A stretch of 64,000 nucleotides of DNA from Chloroflexota bacterium. GTDB lineage: Bacteria > Chloroflexota > Anaerolineae > Anaerolineales > Anaerolineaceae. The number at the start of each line of letters is the position of its first letter. Within the stretch, counting starts at the first letter, position 1. Position numbers and translations under genes: made by a program. The stretch spans positions 1 through 64,000 of the forward strand of contig JAAZOK010000172.1 in the NCBI GenBank assembly GCA_012797815.1. The letters are read 5' to 3'. Of this stretch, positions 35,286 through 44,263 are shown in pieces. A model generated the notes under the pieces. The model was not told the origin of the DNA. It saw only the letters and a program-made list of their open reading frames with translations, and ran no database searches.

Positions 35286-36155
35286 TTATTCTTCCCGATC
35301 TCCTATATTCAGTTGGGCATAAGAAACCTGTTCTTTCTCAGAAGAGAGCGCGAATTCAAGAGCAGCCAATGCGCGCGAGACTATTTTCTCCACGGTTACC
35401 GCATCATCAGGAAAGGTAGCAACGCCTACGCATACTGCGGCATTTTCTTGCTGGACAATCCCATTGATCAGACGAGAAGCGGCAATCTTCGCTTCTTCCT
35501 GCCCGGTCTCCGGTAAAATGGCACCCAGGGTATCCCTGTCATAGCGGGATACTTTATCAAGGGTGCGCAAAATGCCCATACTGATCTTGGCTGTTTCAGC
35601 CATTAACTCCTCAGCCCGCTCATTATCACCCTCAGAAACATAATCTTGGTAGTTCAACAAGCGCACCATCATCACACTGACCGATTTTTTGGTACGCCGG
35701 GAACGGATGAATTCTTCATCCAGCGTCTGTCTGAAAACATGCCATTTGATCAACCCCAATGTATCATGCAAAGTAAGTTCCTCGATAAGGACGTTACTGG
35801 ATGAGTATTGCTGGAGGATATAGTCTATCTCATGATGGATGGCGTGCGAAAACAGCACCGCCAGCAGTGCCACACCTGCGAACACCCCAAACGGAAGCAG
35901 GGCGATACGTAAAGTAGCCTGCGCAGAATACTGCATCCAACCATATACCGCCACACTTAACACCAGCATTATCCAATCGAACCATTTATTGAACTGCAGA
36001 ATGGCAATAACCGTCACAAAACCCAGTAGACATAATCCCAAAACGAGGATCTGTTGGTCGACTATAACCAATCCGCCCGCGCCTGCTACCAAAACTAAGA
36101 CCAACAGTGCGATCAGGATAGACAACTTATTCTTAGAAACGGACCTATTTTTCAT
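35286..36155 (-). CDS. Membrane protein with degenerate GGDEF domain
   Basis: A 289-residue protein. Residues about 10-115 contain four hydrophobic segments; residues about 125-285 resemble a diguanylate cyclase domain (LHDTLGLIKWHVFRQTLDEEF, VSRYDRDTLGAILPETG, AVCVGVATFPDDAVT). Where active enzymes have GG(D/E)EF this one has YDRDT, so it should lack cyclase activity and may bind nucleotide or act as a partner protein. It is last in the exopolysaccharide operon and overlaps the BcsB-like gene by 11 bases, so a role in c-di-GMP control of the synthase is likely (inference). Confidence 0.82.
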   Translation of the reverse strand: MKNRSVSKNKLSILIALLVLVLVAGAGGLVIVDQQILVLGLCLLGFVTVIAILQFNKWFDWIMLVLSVAVYGWMQYSAQATLRIALLPFGVFAGVALLAVLFSHAIHHEIDYILQQYSSSNVLIEELTLHDTLGLIKWHVFRQTLDEEFIRSRRTKKSVSVMMVRLLNYQDYVSEGDNERAEELMAETAKISMGILRTLDKVSRYDRDTLGAILPETGQEEAKIAASRLINGIVQQENAAVCVGVATFPDDAVTVEKIVSRALAALEFALSSEKEQVSYAQLNIGDREE

Positions 36156-38337
36156 GCTTCCTCGGCTTTCTGTTCTTCAGCAGTTCTTCGACAATTTTTA
36201 TTACCAGCAAAATCACCGCAAGTGCTCCAAAACCGATACCAACCCAAATGGGCAGAGTATCTGCTTTTTGTTGTTGAACCTCCGGTGATTCTTCTACCTT
36301 GGGTACCAGATCGGCGGTATTCTGGATCATGGCAGATGAGATCGAGTTTTCTGCCCGGGTCAATGCCAGGTCCCCATATAGATTTTTAATGTTGGTGGTA
36401 TCCATCAAAGCATCCACCGCCCAACCGATCCCTTTGTCAGAGGTACCGGTTGCGATCAACATGGGATTACCATCACTATCGAGCAACGCTTCCAAATAAC
36501 CGATATCTGCAAAATTGGGGTCTACCTGTACCACATCATTCAATGCAGTGGGGTTATTTGTGCCCTCCTCAAATGGTTGAGGAAGTTGTTTGTTCAGTTC
36601 AGCGATTTTACTGTTCTTGGTGGGTTGCCCGATTATGAACAAATGAGTGGGTTTTTCGGCTACCTTATCATATTCAGAAGGAGTGTAAACTTGCAGTCCG
36701 ATCCCTTCCCCATTCAGATAGTGACCCAGGAAACCACTTAATCGAATGACCATTTCATCGACCATTCTGTTGGGATCATCAGGAAGGATGAATCCAAAAT
36801 CGGACATGTCAGAATTGCCGATGAAGGCGTATGGAAACTCGTTGATAGAAAGCACATCGCTGGATGGACCCAACGGAACATTTAACTCCGTATCCGCGAA
36901 GACCACGATCCACGACGAAGTGGGGTCCACATCCAAGCAATCATAACGGGCATCCCGGTAGCCATCCGGGAGATTCATATTACTTACCACCGTCAATACA
37001 TTGTCACCATAATCAAACAAACGGGCAGGGATGACGACATCTTGCCAGGCATCTTCGGCATTATCGGTGGTCAATTGGATGGTATCGGTAGGGGTGCCGT
37101 TCATCAGAACGGTAATATACGATTCTTCCAATTCGCCAAAATCCGAATGAGCGAAATGCAAGCGCATGGTTACATCACTCGTTACTTTCCACGAGGTAGC
37201 CAGAGGCAGTGTGTAGGCAATACGTTGTTCCGTGGTGCCCCATGAGGTGGTATCCAGATACTGGTAATCAGCCAGGGTAAACGTTGAAACATAAGTTGCC
37301 TGTGAGGATACGGAAGCAGGCACCTGGTTCAAAACAGCCAGGGCATCTGGAAGCTGCGTGATGACTGAATCCATGGTAAGCGCTGTAGCAGCTTTCAATA
37401 AGGCAGCATCCGTGTTACCGGTCACCACCAGTACCGATTGATATTGATTATCACGGAACTGTCCGGTCCACAAAATTCCGGCTTCATCGGAATATGGATT
37501 GCCGTTCGCGTCCTGCAATATTCCATCCACGATCTTCCATGGTGCAGAAAGTTCGGACAATAAAGCAAGGTGGCTGGCTCGCCCCACCAGAATGACGTTC
37601 CCCTTCAAGGCAGCCGGGTTGGACCCGGCATCACTTTGCGAAGCGAAAGCGATGTTCAAGGTACGCCAGCTCGCGGATTGCCCCAATTTGGCACTTACCA
37701 GTGCTGCAGCATTGGTTTCAACCGAGGTCGGCGAATCGGGCAGCACAAACGTAACCTCGTTCTCGACAATCCCGGAATCAAGCACAAAGGGGACGGGAAA
37801 TTCATTTAATACCGGAGCAGCTATTTTATCCTGGTACACCAGATCGAAACTAGAGGTGGTGTGGACGGTGAACCATAGTAAATCGTCATCCAGATTCATG
37901 CAGTCAAACCCCTCAAATCCCAGGTAAAAGACCAACTGGATGCGATTGTACCCCTCTACCCATAATTCCCTGGGAATCTGTACGCTCAACTCCCCGTGGT
38001 CGCTATTTTCTGCGTTAAGCTCAACACTGGCAATTTGCGAACCATTGAAATTCACCACAAATGAGGATTTATCGCTAAGTGCTTGAGCATGGCTGAATTT
38101 TAAATTGAGCATGCTGCCCGCTTGCGGTTCCCAGGTGGAAGGATAGACAAAACCATATTCATGCACTGCATTGATTCCCTTGAACGAATCATCTGAAAGC
38201 AGAATGCCCAGATCTTCAAAGGTAAATGTGCTTGATTGCTCCTGCACCTTGGATTGTGGTACTCCGGCAAAGATTATTAAAAATGCGAGAATGATTGATA
38301 AGCTATTCCATATTTTTCTTCCAGTTTTCTTTGACAT
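36145..38337 (-). CDS. BcsB-like cellulose synthase accessory protein
   Basis: A 730-residue exported protein similar to the cellulose synthase subunit BcsB. An N-terminal membrane segment (about residues 8-28) acts as signal or anchor, followed by alternating carbohydrate-binding-like and flavodoxin-like domains; the paired LNLKFSHAQALSDKSSFVV and VTMRLHFAHSDFGELEESY strands show the internal duplication. A C-terminal helix (IGFGALAVILLVIKIV, about residues 700-715) anchors it in the membrane before a basic tail. In cellulose systems BcsB guides the growing chain out of BcsA. The ATG at 38337 was chosen for its aaggag site. Confidence 0.85.
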   Translation of the reverse strand: MSKKTGRKIWNSLSIILAFLIIFAGVPQSKVQEQSSTFTFEDLGILLSDDSFKGINAVHEYGFVYPSTWEPQAGSMLNLKFSHAQALSDKSSFVVNFNGSQIASVELNAENSDHGELSVQIPRELWVEGYNRIQLVFYLGFEGFDCMNLDDDLLWFTVHTTSSFDLVYQDKIAAPVLNEFPVPFVLDSGIVENEVTFVLPDSPTSVETNAAALVSAKLGQSASWRTLNIAFASQSDAGSNPAALKGNVILVGRASHLALLSELSAPWKIVDGILQDANGNPYSDEAGILWTGQFRDNQYQSVLVVTGNTDAALLKAATALTMDSVITQLPDALAVLNQVPASVSSQATYVSTFTLADYQYLDTTSWGTTEQRIAYTLPLATSWKVTSDVTMRLHFAHSDFGELEESYITVLMNGTPTDTIQLTTDNAEDAWQDVVIPARLFDYGDNVLTVVSNMNLPDGYRDARYDCLDVDPTSSWIVVFADTELNVPLGPSSDVLSINEFPYAFIGNSDMSDFGFILPDDPNRMVDEMVIRLSGFLGHYLNGEGIGLQVYTPSEYDKVAEKPTHLFIIGQPTKNSKIAELNKQLPQPFEEGTNNPTALNDVVQVDPNFADIGYLEALLDSDGNPMLIATGTSDKGIGWAVDALMDTTNIKNLYGDLALTRAENSISSAMIQNTADLVPKVEESPEVQQQKADTLPIWVGIGFGALAVILLVIKIVEELLKNRKPRKHEK

Positions 38338-38348
38338 ATGCACACTCC

Positions 38349-40052
38349 TTAATTATTGACCTGGTCGGGTTGGTTAGGATCGGCGATCGTATATAAACGC
38401 CAGGGTAATGGTGAGGGAAACTCGGTTTTAAATTTTGTCCAGGTCTCAAAACCCTCATAAATACCCGGATAATACTGCAAAACCTGTGAACGCCCACGGG
38501 CATCAAAAGTAGGATAAGGCACCAGAATTTGATCTGCCTTCCCGACCGGATTCCGTAAAATATCAAAGAAATCCATATCGGTCGTCATGACCAGATTCTT
38601 GGGATGATCCACCATCAAAGCCAGCGACATCGAGATGGAATGATCCACTATGGTAATTGTATTGGCGGGTTGGGCATTCAGGTAATTGGCAATCATTTGC
38701 ATTTCAGCCAGGGATGCATTCTCATAAGATACCGATTGCTGTTCACCAGCAATGATCCATGACAACAATAATTTCTGCGGCATAGGCTCCTGGATCAGAT
38801 CCCATTTCTTGCTAACCTGACTATAGGTTGGAAATGCCAGGCACACCACAAGCAGCAGATTAATAACCATGCGCTGCCATTTTTTCTCCAATGCTAAATG
38901 AACCGCCCCCATCACAATAACACCGCCCGGAATGAGCCAGATGAAATAACGGCTGAAAGCAGGCAAGTAACCACGATAGCCAATCAGGAAAGTGAACATA
39001 ATGATCGACCAACCCAACAAGATGTAATCGAGGTCGATCCAGCGCTTTTTGGCAATCATAATCAATAAGAGCAACAGGCTGGCTACTACCAACAAAGGAC
39101 CCACAAAAGATATCTCCGTGAATAGCAATCGCAATGAACCACTGATCGAGTTCATGGCGTAATACCAGAGTTGATCCGGACCAAGAGTCTGGGCAGTATC
39201 GGGAGTATTCGCGGTAGCCCCCGGACCCACCAGGAAGTAGATGGGATTCCCCATGATCGTCCAGTTCAGAAAGACCCAGAACATAAAACCATAGGCAGGC
39301 GGGACCAGGAAAGAAAGCAGATCTGCTTCCAGTTTCTCGGGAGAAGTTTTTCCTCTACTAAAAAGCCAATTCCAAGAAATGCCCACTGCCATGACAGCGG
39401 TCCAGGCCAGTGCTTCATAACGGCAATAAATTGCCAACCAGGCACCGATAGCAGCCATCATGATGCCACTATTTCTGCGTTCTTGTCGCCAGATCAGATA
39501 TCCATTGAAAGAGAATAACAGGAATCCTATAAAAGGCGTCTCGGACATACCCAGAGCTGCATTATGTAATATCAGCGGTTGAACTCCCACCAATATCATC
39601 CAGATAATGCGCCAGAGTTTTTCCACCTTGAAGCGTCCCAAAATGCTGTATAGCTGTGTCATCGCAAAAGCAGCATACATGGCGCTCATCAAAGTACCCG
39701 AGATCAAATCCAAATCAAATGGGTGTAAGAGGATAACAAAGGGGATATCAGAAACAGCCGGCAACGGAGGCCAGATATAACCGATCGCCGAAAGGTGGGG
39801 ATCACGTCCAAATATCGCAGCAAATGCCTGCGATATTCTGGATAGCCCTTCATAATCAGAGATAGCATAAGAAAGCGTGCCATAAATGCCGATCAGCGCA
39901 TAAACCAAAAAAGTAACAATAAAGATATATGTGGAGGGATACGAAAACAACTTTCGAATACCCTCCTTTATGTACAGACGGTTCTTCTCACGTGGAGCAT
40001 AAACCGGAGAAACAGCGGGAGCAGGATCGATAACGTTATTTTCAGGAAGCAC
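38349..40052 (-). CDS. GT-C-type membrane glycosyltransferase (GT39/ArnT-like)
   Basis: A 567-residue polytopic protein with about eleven hydrophobic segments and a C-terminal soluble part (about residues 440-567). After the first helix comes an SDYEGLSRISQAF segment, at the place where GT-C enzymes carry catalytic acidic residues. Such enzymes transfer sugars from polyprenyl-phosphate donors outside the membrane. The GTG start at 40052 is proposed because of a strong ggaggag site; in-frame ATGs up to 40112 would lie deep in the preceding gene. It may decorate the polymer made by the neighbouring GT2 synthase. Confidence 0.75.
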   Translation of the reverse strand: MLPENNVIDPAPAVSPVYAPREKNRLYIKEGIRKLFSYPSTYIFIVTFLVYALIGIYGTLSYAISDYEGLSRISQAFAAIFGRDPHLSAIGYIWPPLPAVSDIPFVILLHPFDLDLISGTLMSAMYAAFAMTQLYSILGRFKVEKLWRIIWMILVGVQPLILHNAALGMSETPFIGFLLFSFNGYLIWRQERRNSGIMMAAIGAWLAIYCRYEALAWTAVMAVGISWNWLFSRGKTSPEKLEADLLSFLVPPAYGFMFWVFLNWTIMGNPIYFLVGPGATANTPDTAQTLGPDQLWYYAMNSISGSLRLLFTEISFVGPLLVVASLLLLLIMIAKKRWIDLDYILLGWSIIMFTFLIGYRGYLPAFSRYFIWLIPGGVIVMGAVHLALEKKWQRMVINLLLVVCLAFPTYSQVSKKWDLIQEPMPQKLLLSWIIAGEQQSVSYENASLAEMQMIANYLNAQPANTITIVDHSISMSLALMVDHPKNLVMTTDMDFFDILRNPVGKADQILVPYPTFDARGRSQVLQYYPGIYEGFETWTKFKTEFPSPLPWRLYTIADPNQPDQVNN

Positions 40053-43000
40053 TATTCTCCTCCTCTCCTGATCCCTCATCCTCATCCAACCCCTTTTCCT
40101 GGCTGAATCCATGAATGGTCTTCTCCCAATAATGCGGTTTGCTGATCAACTGCAGAAAACCTTTCCACGCACCAATGCTCATCAGCCCCCAATAGATAGG
40201 ACTTAACAGGGCGAAACGCACATTATCGTAGTGCTTGCGCCGCATGGCACCTGCCACATTCATGTAGGTAAAGACAAAATTTCCCAGATACAGGCTTATT
40301 GAACTCAGATAAAAAATGACGCCAGGGAAAGTTTCTTGAATAAATGCCCATTTGGTCAGGAACCACACCGTGGTTATCGTCCATAGCACCGGGTTGACCA
40401 ATGCTGCAAAAAAGGTACCTCCAGTGACGAATTGAAAACTGATGAAGCCTTTAAGTCCTACTTCGCGCAGCAACTTGAAGGGATCGCGCATATGTACCAA
40501 CCAGGTTTGGATATAACCCTTGATCCAGCGCGAACGTTGGCGCAACCAGTTGTTCAAACGACTATTGGCTTCTTCATAGGTAGTGGAATCGATAGTGCGG
40601 GTATGAAATCCACGTTTATAAAGACGCATTCCCAGGTCAGCATCCTCGGTCACATTATGAGGATCCCAGGCACCCACTTCAGCCAGGGCACGACGTTTGA
40701 AATGGTTTGACGTTCCGCCCAGGGGAATAGGTGCCTCCGATGCATCCAGCCCGGGCAAAAAAAGATCAAACCACATCGAATATTCCGATGTGAACCACTG
40801 CGTGAGCAGATTTTGTGTGCGATTGTAGTAGTTCAATTTTGCCTGTATGCATACCACCTGTGGATCAGATTTTTCAAATGCAACAACCGCTTTCTTGAGT
40901 TGATCGCGGTCCGGGCGGTCTTCTGCGTCGAAGATCACAATATATTCGCCCTTGGCATGGATCAGTCCGTAGTTGCAAGCTTTCGGTTTGGTTCTCGGTT
41001 GTGAACCGGGCACAATGGTCGCTTTGAAATGCGGAGGAAGGTTGAGTTCATAGAAACGTTGAATGGTCTCGGTATCATCTTCTTCCATCAGGATCTTGAT
41101 ATCTAATTTAGTGCTGGGGTAATCCAGGCGGGTAAGTGATTTCATCAGATTCGGCAACACATCCGCTTCTTTATATACCGGCACCAGCAAAGTATATACA
41201 GGCAGTTGTTTCGGATCAAGCGCCGCCAGTTCTTCATCTGAAACCGGCACTTCACAATCATGGTTCATGGCGCTGTAGACCAGATAGAATTTATACGCTG
41301 AAAACCCAATATAGAAGACGGTCACCAGTTCGTTCACGGTAATCGTAAAGGAAGTAAAATCAAGGATCGCCCATATTAATGAAAGAAAAAATAGAACAGA
41401 GAAAAATATGGACTGTCCCCTGCTGAGTACTTTAAAAGCCGATTCCCGTGGGGACCGCGTCAATAAATTTGAAGTACTGGTTATGGTGTAATCAGTAGAG
41501 TAGATACTCTCCAATGCATGTTCCAGACCTTCTTCTGAGGTTACAACCAGACGTACTTTCTTCCCGGTTATTTCCTTCACCTTTTCAATACCGGTCTTAT
41601 CGATCGGGTCAACGATCGCCAGTGTGAGCTCAGTTTTAGTAGCTTTTATTGGCAGCACACCATATTCACGCTCTATCTCCGCATCCACCAAGCGGACAAC
41701 ATCTTCCTGGATGCGCACACCTTTTAGATCGACGAACTTAAGACCCGCCTGCTGCGCCAGGATTTCGTATATCTGTTTTTCATGAATGAATTGCTTGATT
41801 AAAAGAGCCTGTCCCAGGCGCACTCCCGTCTGCTGTGAAAGTTCTAATGCCTCGTTCAACTGGCGGCGGGTGATATAACTATTCTCCAGCAGGTAGGTGC
41901 CGATATTCTTACGCCCCAATGTCCTGGTAATAGCTTCCTGCAACTCAGCGCGAGCTACCAAACTCGGATGAATAGAAGCACCCAGACGCTCCTCAAAGAA
42001 TGGAAGGTTCTGGGCTGTCATGGGGTCGGCAAAAGCCACCATGACATGCTGGCCTTCTTTTCGGATAGGGAGCATCATATATTGATTAGCAAAAGCCGCG
42101 TCAACCAACCCGGCTGTCTTCCGCTCAACCGGATCACGATAGAAGGTGCGAGTGATGCGATTCCCCATGCCATCGAATTCTTCACGCTGCTCTTCTATCA
42201 ATTTTGTATCAAATGTAGGAATGGAAAAAACCCTGCCCAGGATTTGATTTACCTGCGTACCATCATAACGACTGGCTTGTTTAAAAGCTTCATCGAAAGC
42301 CAGTTTATTTTCTGCCATCAGCTGGATCATTTGATTTGCCTGCGTTTGGGTAAGAAAATCAGAATTGATCAATTCCTGCACTGAGTGGTAGGATCCTTCA
42401 TCGATGGTTTGTTTACTGACACCCCAGGTTTTCTCGATGACCGCCTGTAGTACTTTCGCCGGCGCCAGCACGGGAAAGACCTGTTTATTTACATTCCGCT
42501 TGAACTGATTGAATCCCTTTCCATTAAAGGGATAGGGAGTGGCAATCCAGATGGCTTCCCCGGTTTCGTAGAACGGAATTAACGAATAGTTACGAACGAG
42601 TTCTTGAGAGAACCCCTGCAAGAATTGATGGTCGATAATCGAATGATCAAAGGATACTGCCGGAATGCCAGTTTGAAGACTAAATAGCGTGGGCAGGTCT
42701 CCCTCATCGAGGTACCCTCTGGCGATCAATCGTCTTCCCAACAACTCATCCTCGATAGTTGACATCCCATCGACTTCTTGAAGCTGCTTTTGTGTAAGAA
42801 TTTCCAGCGTCAACAAGATATCTTGAAATGAGAGTTCAAAATATTTGTTGTCATGATTCGATCGATCAGCATAAACCTGGTTGATCCAGGTTTGCAGTTG
42901 TTCCGAACTGATCAAATAAGGAGTGACAGTGCGTTGCGTTAGTGTTTGCAGCGCAGCAATCTTCTCTTTTGAAATTTCAACCCCGGCGATTTGAACGGAA

Positions 43001-43992
43001 GTCTCCGTGCACTTCAATATGATGACTCCCAGTTCTTCAGCCAGGCTTTCTGGAAGCAGCCGCTTACATTCTGGGTCAAGGCTCGTACCGGGCGGCATCA
43101 CGGGTATACCTGTCAACGCTGATTTCGCATCCTGCAGTTTCTCAATTGAAATGATACCCAGCGTTATGAACGCATCGATAATATTGACACGGTATTGCGT
43201 CGCGTAGACGCGAGCGCGTTGTACATCATTCGCATCCAGTGAAAAGTGATCCTGGCAATAATCAACGATCATCTGATCAGAAAGTTCCCGTCTTTTCTGT
43301 CCCTCCAAATAAATACGACGAAAAGCATTTTTCCACTGTCTCTCAGAACAGATCACCAGTCGCACATTGAAATTGAACAGGTTGTTAAGTTGCGAGATAT
43401 TATTTTCCAGGGCGGCGCCATTACATCCCACGAACAAACGACCACCCAGCCACCACAATGGGATTACCTGAAATTTTCTGGCAACATCCATTGGGATAAG
43501 CGATGCAAGATCATTCTTGATAGCTGTTTCACCCAGATCGAGATGCGGTAGCTGGTAATAGACACCTTGACACTCCAGATCCGCTTTTTCTAATGGTGTC
43601 AGGGAAGGTAGCGGACGATTTCCTTCATTTTCCTTTTGGTCGCTTTTTTCCCGCACTTCCCGTCTCTGTGGTTCCCCGTTCAACCGACGATAGAGTTCTC
43701 CATAATCGGCTTGAGGGAAATCGATATTGGGATCATCGTATAAAACATGTTGGAATTTCTGGAGTGAAAGATAAGGAATGCAATAAAGGCTGACGGGGCG
43801 TTTTAGCAATCGCTCAAGGTCGGATATATTTTCGAAGGCATGATCTGCCGTACCCAATACATAATGATCTCCATCCGCCCATAATGGCACCACATCATAT
43901 TTCTTCGAAATAGATTCGGGTATACCAGGATAAATATTCTGCGGCTGGAATTGTGTTGAAAGCTGCAGATAAGGCAATGTCCTATTTTTCAT
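40042..43992 (-). CDS. MshEN-array/GT2 fusion: probable c-di-GMP-regulated polysaccharide synthase
   Basis: A 1316-residue fusion. Residues about 5-870 contain roughly six tandem GspE/PilB N-terminal (MshEN-like) modules; the clearest are the last two (GTYLLENSYITRRQLNEALE then VRLGQALLIKQFIHEKQ). MshEN domains can bind c-di-GMP. Two membrane helices follow (about 880-920), then a BcsA-like GT2 domain from about 930 with DAED (about 1022), TEDAD (about 1115) and QRSRW (about 1152), and C-terminal membrane helices. E. coli NfrB also joins GT2 and an MshEN-like domain, but in the opposite order. The start at 43992 follows ggag; ATGs at 44001 and 44016 are alternatives. Confidence 0.88.
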   Translation of the reverse strand: MKNRTLPYLQLSTQFQPQNIYPGIPESISKKYDVVPLWADGDHYVLGTADHAFENISDLERLLKRPVSLYCIPYLSLQKFQHVLYDDPNIDFPQADYGELYRRLNGEPQRREVREKSDQKENEGNRPLPSLTPLEKADLECQGVYYQLPHLDLGETAIKNDLASLIPMDVARKFQVIPLWWLGGRLFVGCNGAALENNISQLNNLFNFNVRLVICSERQWKNAFRRIYLEGQKRRELSDQMIVDYCQDHFSLDANDVQRARVYATQYRVNIIDAFITLGIISIEKLQDAKSALTGIPVMPPGTSLDPECKRLLPESLAEELGVIILKCTETSVQIAGVEISKEKIAALQTLTQRTVTPYLISSEQLQTWINQVYADRSNHDNKYFELSFQDILLTLEILTQKQLQEVDGMSTIEDELLGRRLIARGYLDEGDLPTLFSLQTGIPAVSFDHSIIDHQFLQGFSQELVRNYSLIPFYETGEAIWIATPYPFNGKGFNQFKRNVNKQVFPVLAPAKVLQAVIEKTWGVSKQTIDEGSYHSVQELINSDFLTQTQANQMIQLMAENKLAFDEAFKQASRYDGTQVNQILGRVFSIPTFDTKLIEEQREEFDGMGNRITRTFYRDPVERKTAGLVDAAFANQYMMLPIRKEGQHVMVAFADPMTAQNLPFFEERLGASIHPSLVARAELQEAITRTLGRKNIGTYLLENSYITRRQLNEALELSQQTGVRLGQALLIKQFIHEKQIYEILAQQAGLKFVDLKGVRIQEDVVRLVDAEIEREYGVLPIKATKTELTLAIVDPIDKTGIEKVKEITGKKVRLVVTSEEGLEHALESIYSTDYTITSTSNLLTRSPRESAFKVLSRGQSIFFSVLFFLSLIWAILDFTSFTITVNELVTVFYIGFSAYKFYLVYSAMNHDCEVPVSDEELAALDPKQLPVYTLLVPVYKEADVLPNLMKSLTRLDYPSTKLDIKILMEEDDTETIQRFYELNLPPHFKATIVPGSQPRTKPKACNYGLIHAKGEYIVIFDAEDRPDRDQLKKAVVAFEKSDPQVVCIQAKLNYYNRTQNLLTQWFTSEYSMWFDLFLPGLDASEAPIPLGGTSNHFKRRALAEVGAWDPHNVTEDADLGMRLYKRGFHTRTIDSTTYEEANSRLNNWLRQRSRWIKGYIQTWLVHMRDPFKLLREVGLKGFISFQFVTGGTFFAALVNPVLWTITTVWFLTKWAFIQETFPGVIFYLSSISLYLGNFVFTYMNVAGAMRRKHYDNVRFALLSPIYWGLMSIGAWKGFLQLISKPHYWEKTIHGFSQEKGLDEDEGSGEEENSAS

Positions 43993-44263
43993 GGTCTCCA
44001 TCAGTATCTGTATCATCTATGAATTCATAGCCATGCCTGCGTCGTTTCGAATTTTTCGACGTACCGTTGTTCTTTTCGCGCAAGGTAAATAAAATACCAA
44101 TATCAGAAATTGCCAGGATAATTGAGAAAACGACAATGATGATCAAAGGGATGGTAAAATATCCAACCCACATACCCAAAAATAATGCCATTACAATACC
44201 GAGTGTCAGGAATACGCGGATCAAAACAATTACGATCAGTCGAGTACGATTTTTAATTTCCAT
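43982..44263 (-). CDS. Small membrane protein heading the exopolysaccharide operon
   Basis: A 93-residue protein with two closely spaced hydrophobic helices (about residues 8-32 and 34-58), then a basic KNSKRRRHG stretch and a very acidic tail (FIDDTDTDGDHE). No family recognised. Its 3' end overlaps the start of the synthase gene, so the products are probably made in step; it could be a membrane partner of the synthase (inference). The ATG follows aaaaagag, a weak ribosome site. Confidence 0.7.
   Translation of the reverse strand: MEIKNRTRLIVIVLIRVFLTLGIVMALFLGMWVGYFTIPLIIIVVFSIILAISDIGILFTLREKNNGTSKNSKRRRHGYEFIDDTDTDGDHEK

Follow-up and report, generated by a model that had tools for sequence, protein, structure and literature searches.

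A six-module MshEN array with a single predicted c-di-GMP site on a processive family 2 glycosyltransferase of a Chloroflexota bacterium

How many of six tandem MshEN domains in front of a family 2 glycosyltransferase (GT2) can sense cyclic di-GMP (c-di-GMP), and what might the remaining copies be for? This question is raised by a gene in the first 64,000 nucleotides of contig JAAZOK010000172.1 (assembly GCA_012797815.1) from a Chloroflexota bacterium of the family Anaerolineaceae, a stretch that we refer to in full as the window. The initial annotation had taken the array as a sign of multivalent or graded c-di-GMP control. We favour, with moderate confidence, a different reading: the protein would be a c-di-GMP-responsive processive GT2 polysaccharide synthase in which module 6 is the single working sensor, while modules 1–5 would serve as a scaffold, a spacer or a docking platform without binding the ligand.

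The synthase is encoded by a single unbroken open reading frame (ORF) of 1324 amino acids at 40042..44016 on the minus strand, as are all window features described here, and is delimited by the ORF, Pfam matches and orthologs. The start at 43992 proposed in the initial annotation is Met9 of this ORF, and both starts are possible. Pfam finds six stretches of PF05157 (MshEN; E = 4.9e-64), all within residues 14–840, and two GT2 families, PF13632 (E = 3.1e-27) and PF13641 (E = 2.9e-21). In a genome-wide search five of the six PF05157 stretches individually exceeded the Pfam cut-off, with the first just under it (21.0 versus 23.1 bits). The array is followed by two predicted membrane-spanning helices at the sensor/GT2 junction (residues 866–918, 41263..41421; helices 866–885 and 887–918 in the AlphaFold2 (AF2) model, with a hydropathy peak at 870–888), by the GT2 catalytic domain (residues 931–1190, 40447..41226; Pfam, BcsA superposition and motifs) and by C-terminal membrane and interface helices (residues 1191–1305, 40102..40446; AF2 and motif search) that end in PHYWEKTIHG. 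Inside the GT2 domain lie DAED at residue 1030 (40918-40929), TEDAD at 1123 (40636-40650) and QRSRW at 1160 (40525-40539), and with DxD-type, TED and QxxRW motifs, a GT-A fold and transmembrane (TM) helices the enzyme is of the processive, BcsA/HAS type. The six modules and complete catalytic motifs described at the outset were thus recovered. So was the lack of PilZ, a domain found by Pfam neither in the protein nor elsewhere in the genome. Pfam also finds in the synthase no C-terminal ATPase domain of the type II/IV secretion ATPases (GspE/PilB/PilF), the array being followed by GT2 instead.

The number of MshEN matches is not the number of potential ligand sites. Binding of c-di-GMP is mainly due to MshEN_N, through two 24-residue motifs separated by five residues (PMC5013675). 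PF05157 models the C-subdomain rather than the helical N-subdomain, and its match count is therefore not usable as a count of c-di-GMP sites; equating the two was rejected on this ground. We relied instead on NF053729, a curated NCBIfam model of the c-di-GMP-motif part (53 positions, cut-off 38 bits). Within the synthase a single stretch exceeds this cut-off, at residues 705–756 in module 6 (48.7 bits by hmmscan). In the genome-wide search module 6 scored 55.7 bits and module 4 only 17.5, and modules 1, 2, 3 and 5 were not listed. Modules 2–6 retain 0, 0, 7, 0 and 11 of the 14 key motif positions, respectively, and module 1 has no N-subdomain at all, such that an N-subdomain with both motifs is found in module 6 and in none of modules 1–5. 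The loss or degradation of the motifs in modules 1–5 makes a multivalent or graded c-di-GMP array in this protein unlikely, as judged from sequence. That modules might lack all nucleotide-binding residues had been named as a result that would count against c-di-GMP sensing; such a lack applies to the majority of modules but is not seen in module 6.

AF2 models were built from an alignment of relatives in two fragments. Residues 600–1324 were predicted with high confidence (predicted local distance difference test (pLDDT) 91.6, predicted template modelling score (pTM) 0.87); for residues 1–870 (pLDDT 86.1, pTM 0.56) the individual modules are confident, but not their mutual arrangement. The models contain six α/β C-subdomains, the GT2 fold and the membrane helices, with helical subdomains ahead of modules 3, 4, 5 and 6, a partial one ahead of module 2 and none ahead of module 1. 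Thus, the structure-based count of modules that had been proposed bears out six C-subdomains, but not six complete pairs of N- and C-subdomains. A custom profile places the C-subdomains at residues 14–94, 154–236, 311–383, 450–529, 628–698 and 758–840. Module 1 consists of its C-subdomain alone (43735..43977; Pfam genome search, custom profile, motif alignment and AF2). Module 2 has a helical N-subdomain remnant with zero motif residues (residues 102–154, 43555..43713; AF2 helices 102–108, 114–127 and 142–154, and motif alignment). Degenerate N-subdomains precede the C-subdomains of module 3 (residues ~242–302, 43111..43293; an AF2 helical region with no key position aligned), module 4 (residues 397–449, 42670..42828; from its key positions and subthreshold NF053729 score) and module 5 (residues 540–596, 42229..42399; AF2 helices and key positions). 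The C-subdomains of modules 2, 3 and 4 (43309..43557, 42868..43086 and 42430..42669) come from the Pfam genome search and the custom profile; that of module 5 carries an inserted β-hairpin and spans residues 601–698 (41923..42216; custom profile and AF2). The C-subdomain of module 6 (41497..41745; Pfam and custom profile) is the best PF05157 match.

The N-subdomain of module 6 (residues 704–756, 41749..41907), assigned from NF053729, the match to 5HTL and conservation, comprises four helices in the AF2 model and reads NIGTYLLENSYITRRQLNEALELS-QQTGV-RLGQALLIKQFIHEKQIYEILAQQ. In structural comparison, the model of module 6 superposes on c-di-GMP-bound MshE (5HTL) with Z 19.7 and a root-mean-square deviation (rmsd) of 2.1 Å over 138 residues at 30% identity, and also matches PilF GSPII-B complexes with Z about 17.5. 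Together with the NF053729 result, this agrees with the earlier proposal of MshEN as the likely c-di-GMP input. The fold matches also include partner complexes, GspE-N/EpsL (EpsE–EpsL, 2BH1) and PilB-N/PilZ (7LKM). The matches listed are filled by module 6, and the lack of weighty matches for modules 1–5 is thus uninformative. The glycine pair G11/G40 is intact in module 6, as are the equivalents of R38 and Q61 and the hydrophobic residues at all six stacking positions (I705, L720, L724, L734, I749 and L753). In MshE, affinity drops by more than 10-fold when the hydrophobic residues are changed, and G11L/G40I bind poorly if at all (PMC5013675).

Several observations weigh against a working site in module 6. 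In all ten long-array orthologs compared, its motif I has N, S or T in place of the first Arg and S, A or H in place of the last Gln, the turn Gly is gone from both motifs of the window protein (S713 and Q742), and neither motif matches the literal consensus RLGxx(L/V/I)2xxG(L/V/I)2xxxxLxxxLxxQ (PMC5013675). At the consensus positions R1, L2, G10 and Q24, motif I carries N, I, S and S, respectively, and it agrees only with a relaxed pattern; in motif II, Q replaces G10 and I replaces L17. The affinity of module 6 could therefore be weak, or binding could have been lost. Nevertheless, we consider it likely from the sequence that module 6 binds c-di-GMP, possibly in weakened form, because changes of Arg9 and Gln32 in MshE cost no more than about 5-fold in affinity (PMC5013675) and because PilF GSPII-B binds at 6 nM without Arg at either first motif position.

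Conservation singles out the same subdomain. Synthase orthologs in three genomes of the same genus are 59–65% identical over their full length, with 88–92% identity in GT2, 77–88% in the N-subdomain of module 6, 54–64% in its C-subdomain and 28–59% in modules 1–5. Since the module 6 N-subdomain is far more conserved than its own C-subdomain, selection points at the ligand-binding half, and by this measure the portion of the array under selection is its only N-subdomain that has a predicted ligand site. Module 6 also exceeded the NF053729 cut-off in 9/9 other long orthologs scanned. Between genera the region of modules 1–5 is only about 10–32% identical, yet all full-length Chloroflexota orthologs have six C-subdomains and ~1310–1350 amino acids; from this constant count, modules 1–5 are probably not mere debris. 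In deeper Chloroflexota branches more N-subdomains are recognizable, with four, three and four NF053729 stretches in L045, L049 and L115, respectively, which suggests that the number of working sites was once larger and fell to one in the genus of the window, a direction that we infer from these counts. In L049, module 4 (residues 398–455 of its GT2 protein) has a nearly canonical motif (13/14), and that protein may have two sites.

Closely packed downstream of the synthase are ORF2, a BcsB-like protein and a GGDEF protein. To place them, we draw on a scan in which module 6 plus GT2 was searched against 84,980 species genomes; it gave at least 560 confirmed places, the best 80 of which were studied. 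ORF2 (38349..40112), a polytopic membrane protein annotated from the PMT_2 matches of its homologs and from neighbour conservation, has no Pfam match of its own and a weak match to LA_3751/LA_3752 putative glycosyltransferases; since its homologs match PMT_2 weakly, it is likely to be a GT-C-like membrane enzyme. It shares the strand of the GT2 and lies no more than 250 nt away in 54/80 loci, or no more than 2.5 kb away in 68/80, and is also found beside MshEN-less Armatimonadota GT2s. The BcsB-like periplasmic subunit (36145..38343; PF03170, E = 1.1e-54) scores under every NCBIfam BcsB cut-off, and BcsB is present in 24/80 loci. The third gene (35286..36155; PF00990, E = 6.6e-11, and motif alignment) encodes a membrane-anchored degenerate GGDEF protein, in which DRDTL replaces GGDEF at the active site (A-site), rendering it dead, and the RxxD I-site is retained as RTLD; it may serve as an I-site receptor. 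BcsB-linked GGDEF relatives in L046–L049, L078, L080 and L088 also have degenerate A-sites, some with RxxD.

Elsewhere in the genome there are 13 GGDEF matches (canonical GG[DE]EF in the eight best) and six EAL matches, and three c-di-GMP-I riboswitches exceed the Rfam cut-off (G000, the genome of the window, at C123:5754, C123:7577 and C151:19941), two of them near EAL genes. Taken together, these indicate that c-di-GMP signalling is present. The synthase is the sole MshEN protein of the genome; the idea that it is the only c-di-GMP receptor was rejected given the three riboswitches.

In the mechanism that we propose, c-di-GMP would bind module 6, directly ahead of the first membrane helix, and shift the relation of its two subdomains, as in PilF GSPII-B. 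The change would reach the active site of the GT2 domain by way of the adjoining helix and the two membrane helices, such that module 6 may either relieve inhibition of the GT2 domain or activate it. The synthase would elongate a glycan and extrude the polymer through its own membrane helices, to be handed to the BcsB-like subunit, with ORF2 and the degenerate GGDEF protein as accessory components. The architecture, folds, motif state, conservation and operon were computed directly; module 6 binding, the allosteric route and its sign, what modules 1–5 interact with, activation and the product are inferred. For module 6 as the sensor speak its sole pass of NF053729, the retained glycines and hydrophobic residues, the 5HTL match, conservation, the c-di-GMP signalling genes of the genome and the precedent of NfrB from Escherichia coli. 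Modules 1–5 would be MshEN copies that no longer bind the ligand and instead keep partner proteins in place. The precedent for such a role comes from the fold, since in the EpsE–EpsL and PilB–PilZ complexes a domain of the MshEN type engages another protein; that the role has this precedent as its sole basis is a further point against our interpretation.

The most serious challenge comes from the loss of the motif I Arg and Gln in module 6 across the long-array clade. Combined with an operon GGDEF protein that has a dead A-site and an intact RxxD, it would fit a protein in which no module binds c-di-GMP and the whole array is a docking or assembly platform, with c-di-GMP input through the degenerate GGDEF RxxD site or with none. 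Non-binding degenerate MshEN domains are known from XpsE (PMC5013675) and PilF GSPII-A (PMC12002112), and the EpsL and PilZ complexes are among the fold matches. We nonetheless regard this as rather unlikely, for the module 6 N-subdomain passes the curated cut-off and approaches the catalytic domain in conservation, which its own C-subdomain does not. It is doubtful, and somewhat less probable still, that the array is a multi-input device, in which decayed sites act jointly or bind another ligand or partner, such as the degenerate GGDEF protein with its RxxD, and c-di-GMP sensed by module 6 is integrated with further signals arriving through modules 1–5.

The rapid divergence of modules 1–5 bears on two other explanations. 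It is what would be expected if they were neutral baggage of tandem duplication, retained for want of a frame-preserving deletion, and related lineages do well on one or two modules; but neutral decay would hardly preserve six C-subdomains and a nearly constant length at such low identity, and we hold this account to be improbable. The same divergence speaks against a multivalent or graded sensor, in which several modules bind c-di-GMP at different affinities. The three or four NF053729 stretches of the deeper relatives and the L049 motif would favour such a sensor, as would PilF, each chain of which binds two c-di-GMP molecules at widely differing affinities. In the window protein, though, module 6 alone passes, the other modules keep at most half of the key positions, and PilF lacks strong cooperativity, leaving only a slight chance for this explanation.

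Sensor-first MshEN-GT2 proteins make up most of the best 80 places of the genome scan; they come from Bacillota, Actinomycetota, Chloroflexota, Pseudomonadota, Aquificota, Nitrospinota and others, and usually carry one or two modules. Sensor-first order is indeed opposite to that of E. coli NfrB, as the initial annotation had noted, but it is not unusual, being common across the GT2 family in several phyla. The recurring make-ups are one N- with one C-subdomain, an orphan C-subdomain with a full MshEN, and 2–3 N-subdomains with one C-subdomain, the last in one well-supported Bacillota clade. A genome search for the same architecture had been suggested, and it gave a divided answer: the sensor-first fusion is widespread, but among the best 80 of at least 560 places the six-module form occurs in Chloroflexota only. 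In the GT2 tree the six-module proteins group together with a support of 88 (not starred), the edge-truncated protein L052 among them. A class-wide search of 396 genomes found the long form once beyond the genome of the window (G328), so that it is rare in this sample, which omits some genomes known to carry it. A plasmid search gave only partial relatives, less than 60% identical, and a literature search on MshEN in Chloroflexi, or on tandem MshEN with exopolysaccharide, found nothing specific. Five clostridial relatives (L079, L081, L095, L106 and L107) have three N-subdomain (c-di-GMP-motif) repeats in their N-terminal 180 residues with one C-subdomain; multivalent sensing of c-di-GMP is more plausible for these than for the window protein. 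GT2 relatives in Armatimonadota/WS1 (L083, L097, L105, L109, L113, L114 and L118) are without any MshEN, mostly with an ORF2 neighbour; the sensor was either lost or absent beforehand.

These findings separate the number of PF05157 matches from the number of likely c-di-GMP sites, two quantities that are easily confused, and point to a large sensor-first MshEN-GT2 family, Gram-positive bacteria included, for no member of which did we find a functional study. Its members form a natural series (one, two or six modules; full, half-degenerate or lost motifs) for the MshEN switching of a PilZ-less processive glycosyltransferase.

Comparison with known systems places the synthase more precisely. The MshEN-GT2s of Paenibacillus, Nocardioides, Clostridium, Desulfosporosinus, Aquificota and others share its order (sensor, TM pair, GT2, C-terminal membrane helices), about 42–61% identity over module 6 plus GT2, and the ORF2 neighbour, often with BcsB. 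They differ in having one full MshEN (about 615–640 amino acids) or one of the two other recurring make-ups, usually with both motifs nearer the consensus than in module 6 of the window protein. NfrB is likewise an MshEN-controlled GT2 with DxD/TED/QxxRW, which binds c-di-GMP (dissociation constant 1 µM) and requires it for function (PMC8669469), but its GT2 comes first and a single MshEN last, and its partners are NfrA and YbcH rather than BcsB and ORF2. Neither nfrA nor ybcH is among the operon genes in the window, and the NCBIfam NfrB score of the synthase is 155 versus a cut-off of 1170 bits. Given the reversed order, different partners and low score, identity with NfrB was rejected. The GT2/TM core superposes on BcsA (4P00; Z 24.5, rmsd 3.1 Å, 390 residues), and BcsA–BcsB likewise pairs a GT2 with a BcsB partner. 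BcsA differs in its PilZ domain and FxVTxK gating loop; that pattern is absent from the synthase, which has WEKTIH at 1297 and an N-terminal input domain instead, and its CelA equivalog score is 82.6 versus a cut-off of 699.1 bits. A BcsA cellulose synthase was therefore rejected despite the BcsB-like partner. PilF of Thermus thermophilus has three tandem GSPII/MshEN domains, of which B and C bind c-di-GMP and A does not (PMC11731258, PMC12002112), with little cooperativity. Like the window protein, it carries a tandem array in which not every copy binds the ligand, but it drives a pilus ATPase rather than a glycosyltransferase, and each of its three modules has both subdomains. Although the synthase resembles NfrB and BcsA in joining a c-di-GMP receptor domain to a processive GT2, it belongs to neither group and represents a long variant, with six modules, within a widespread MshEN-GT2 family. 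The fusion of MshEN to a glycosyltransferase was already stated in 2016 (PMC5013675), and a tandem MshEN array with a non-binding copy was known from PilF; what is new is a six-fold array on a GT2, the suggested reduction of this array to a single site, and how widely the sensor-first family is distributed.

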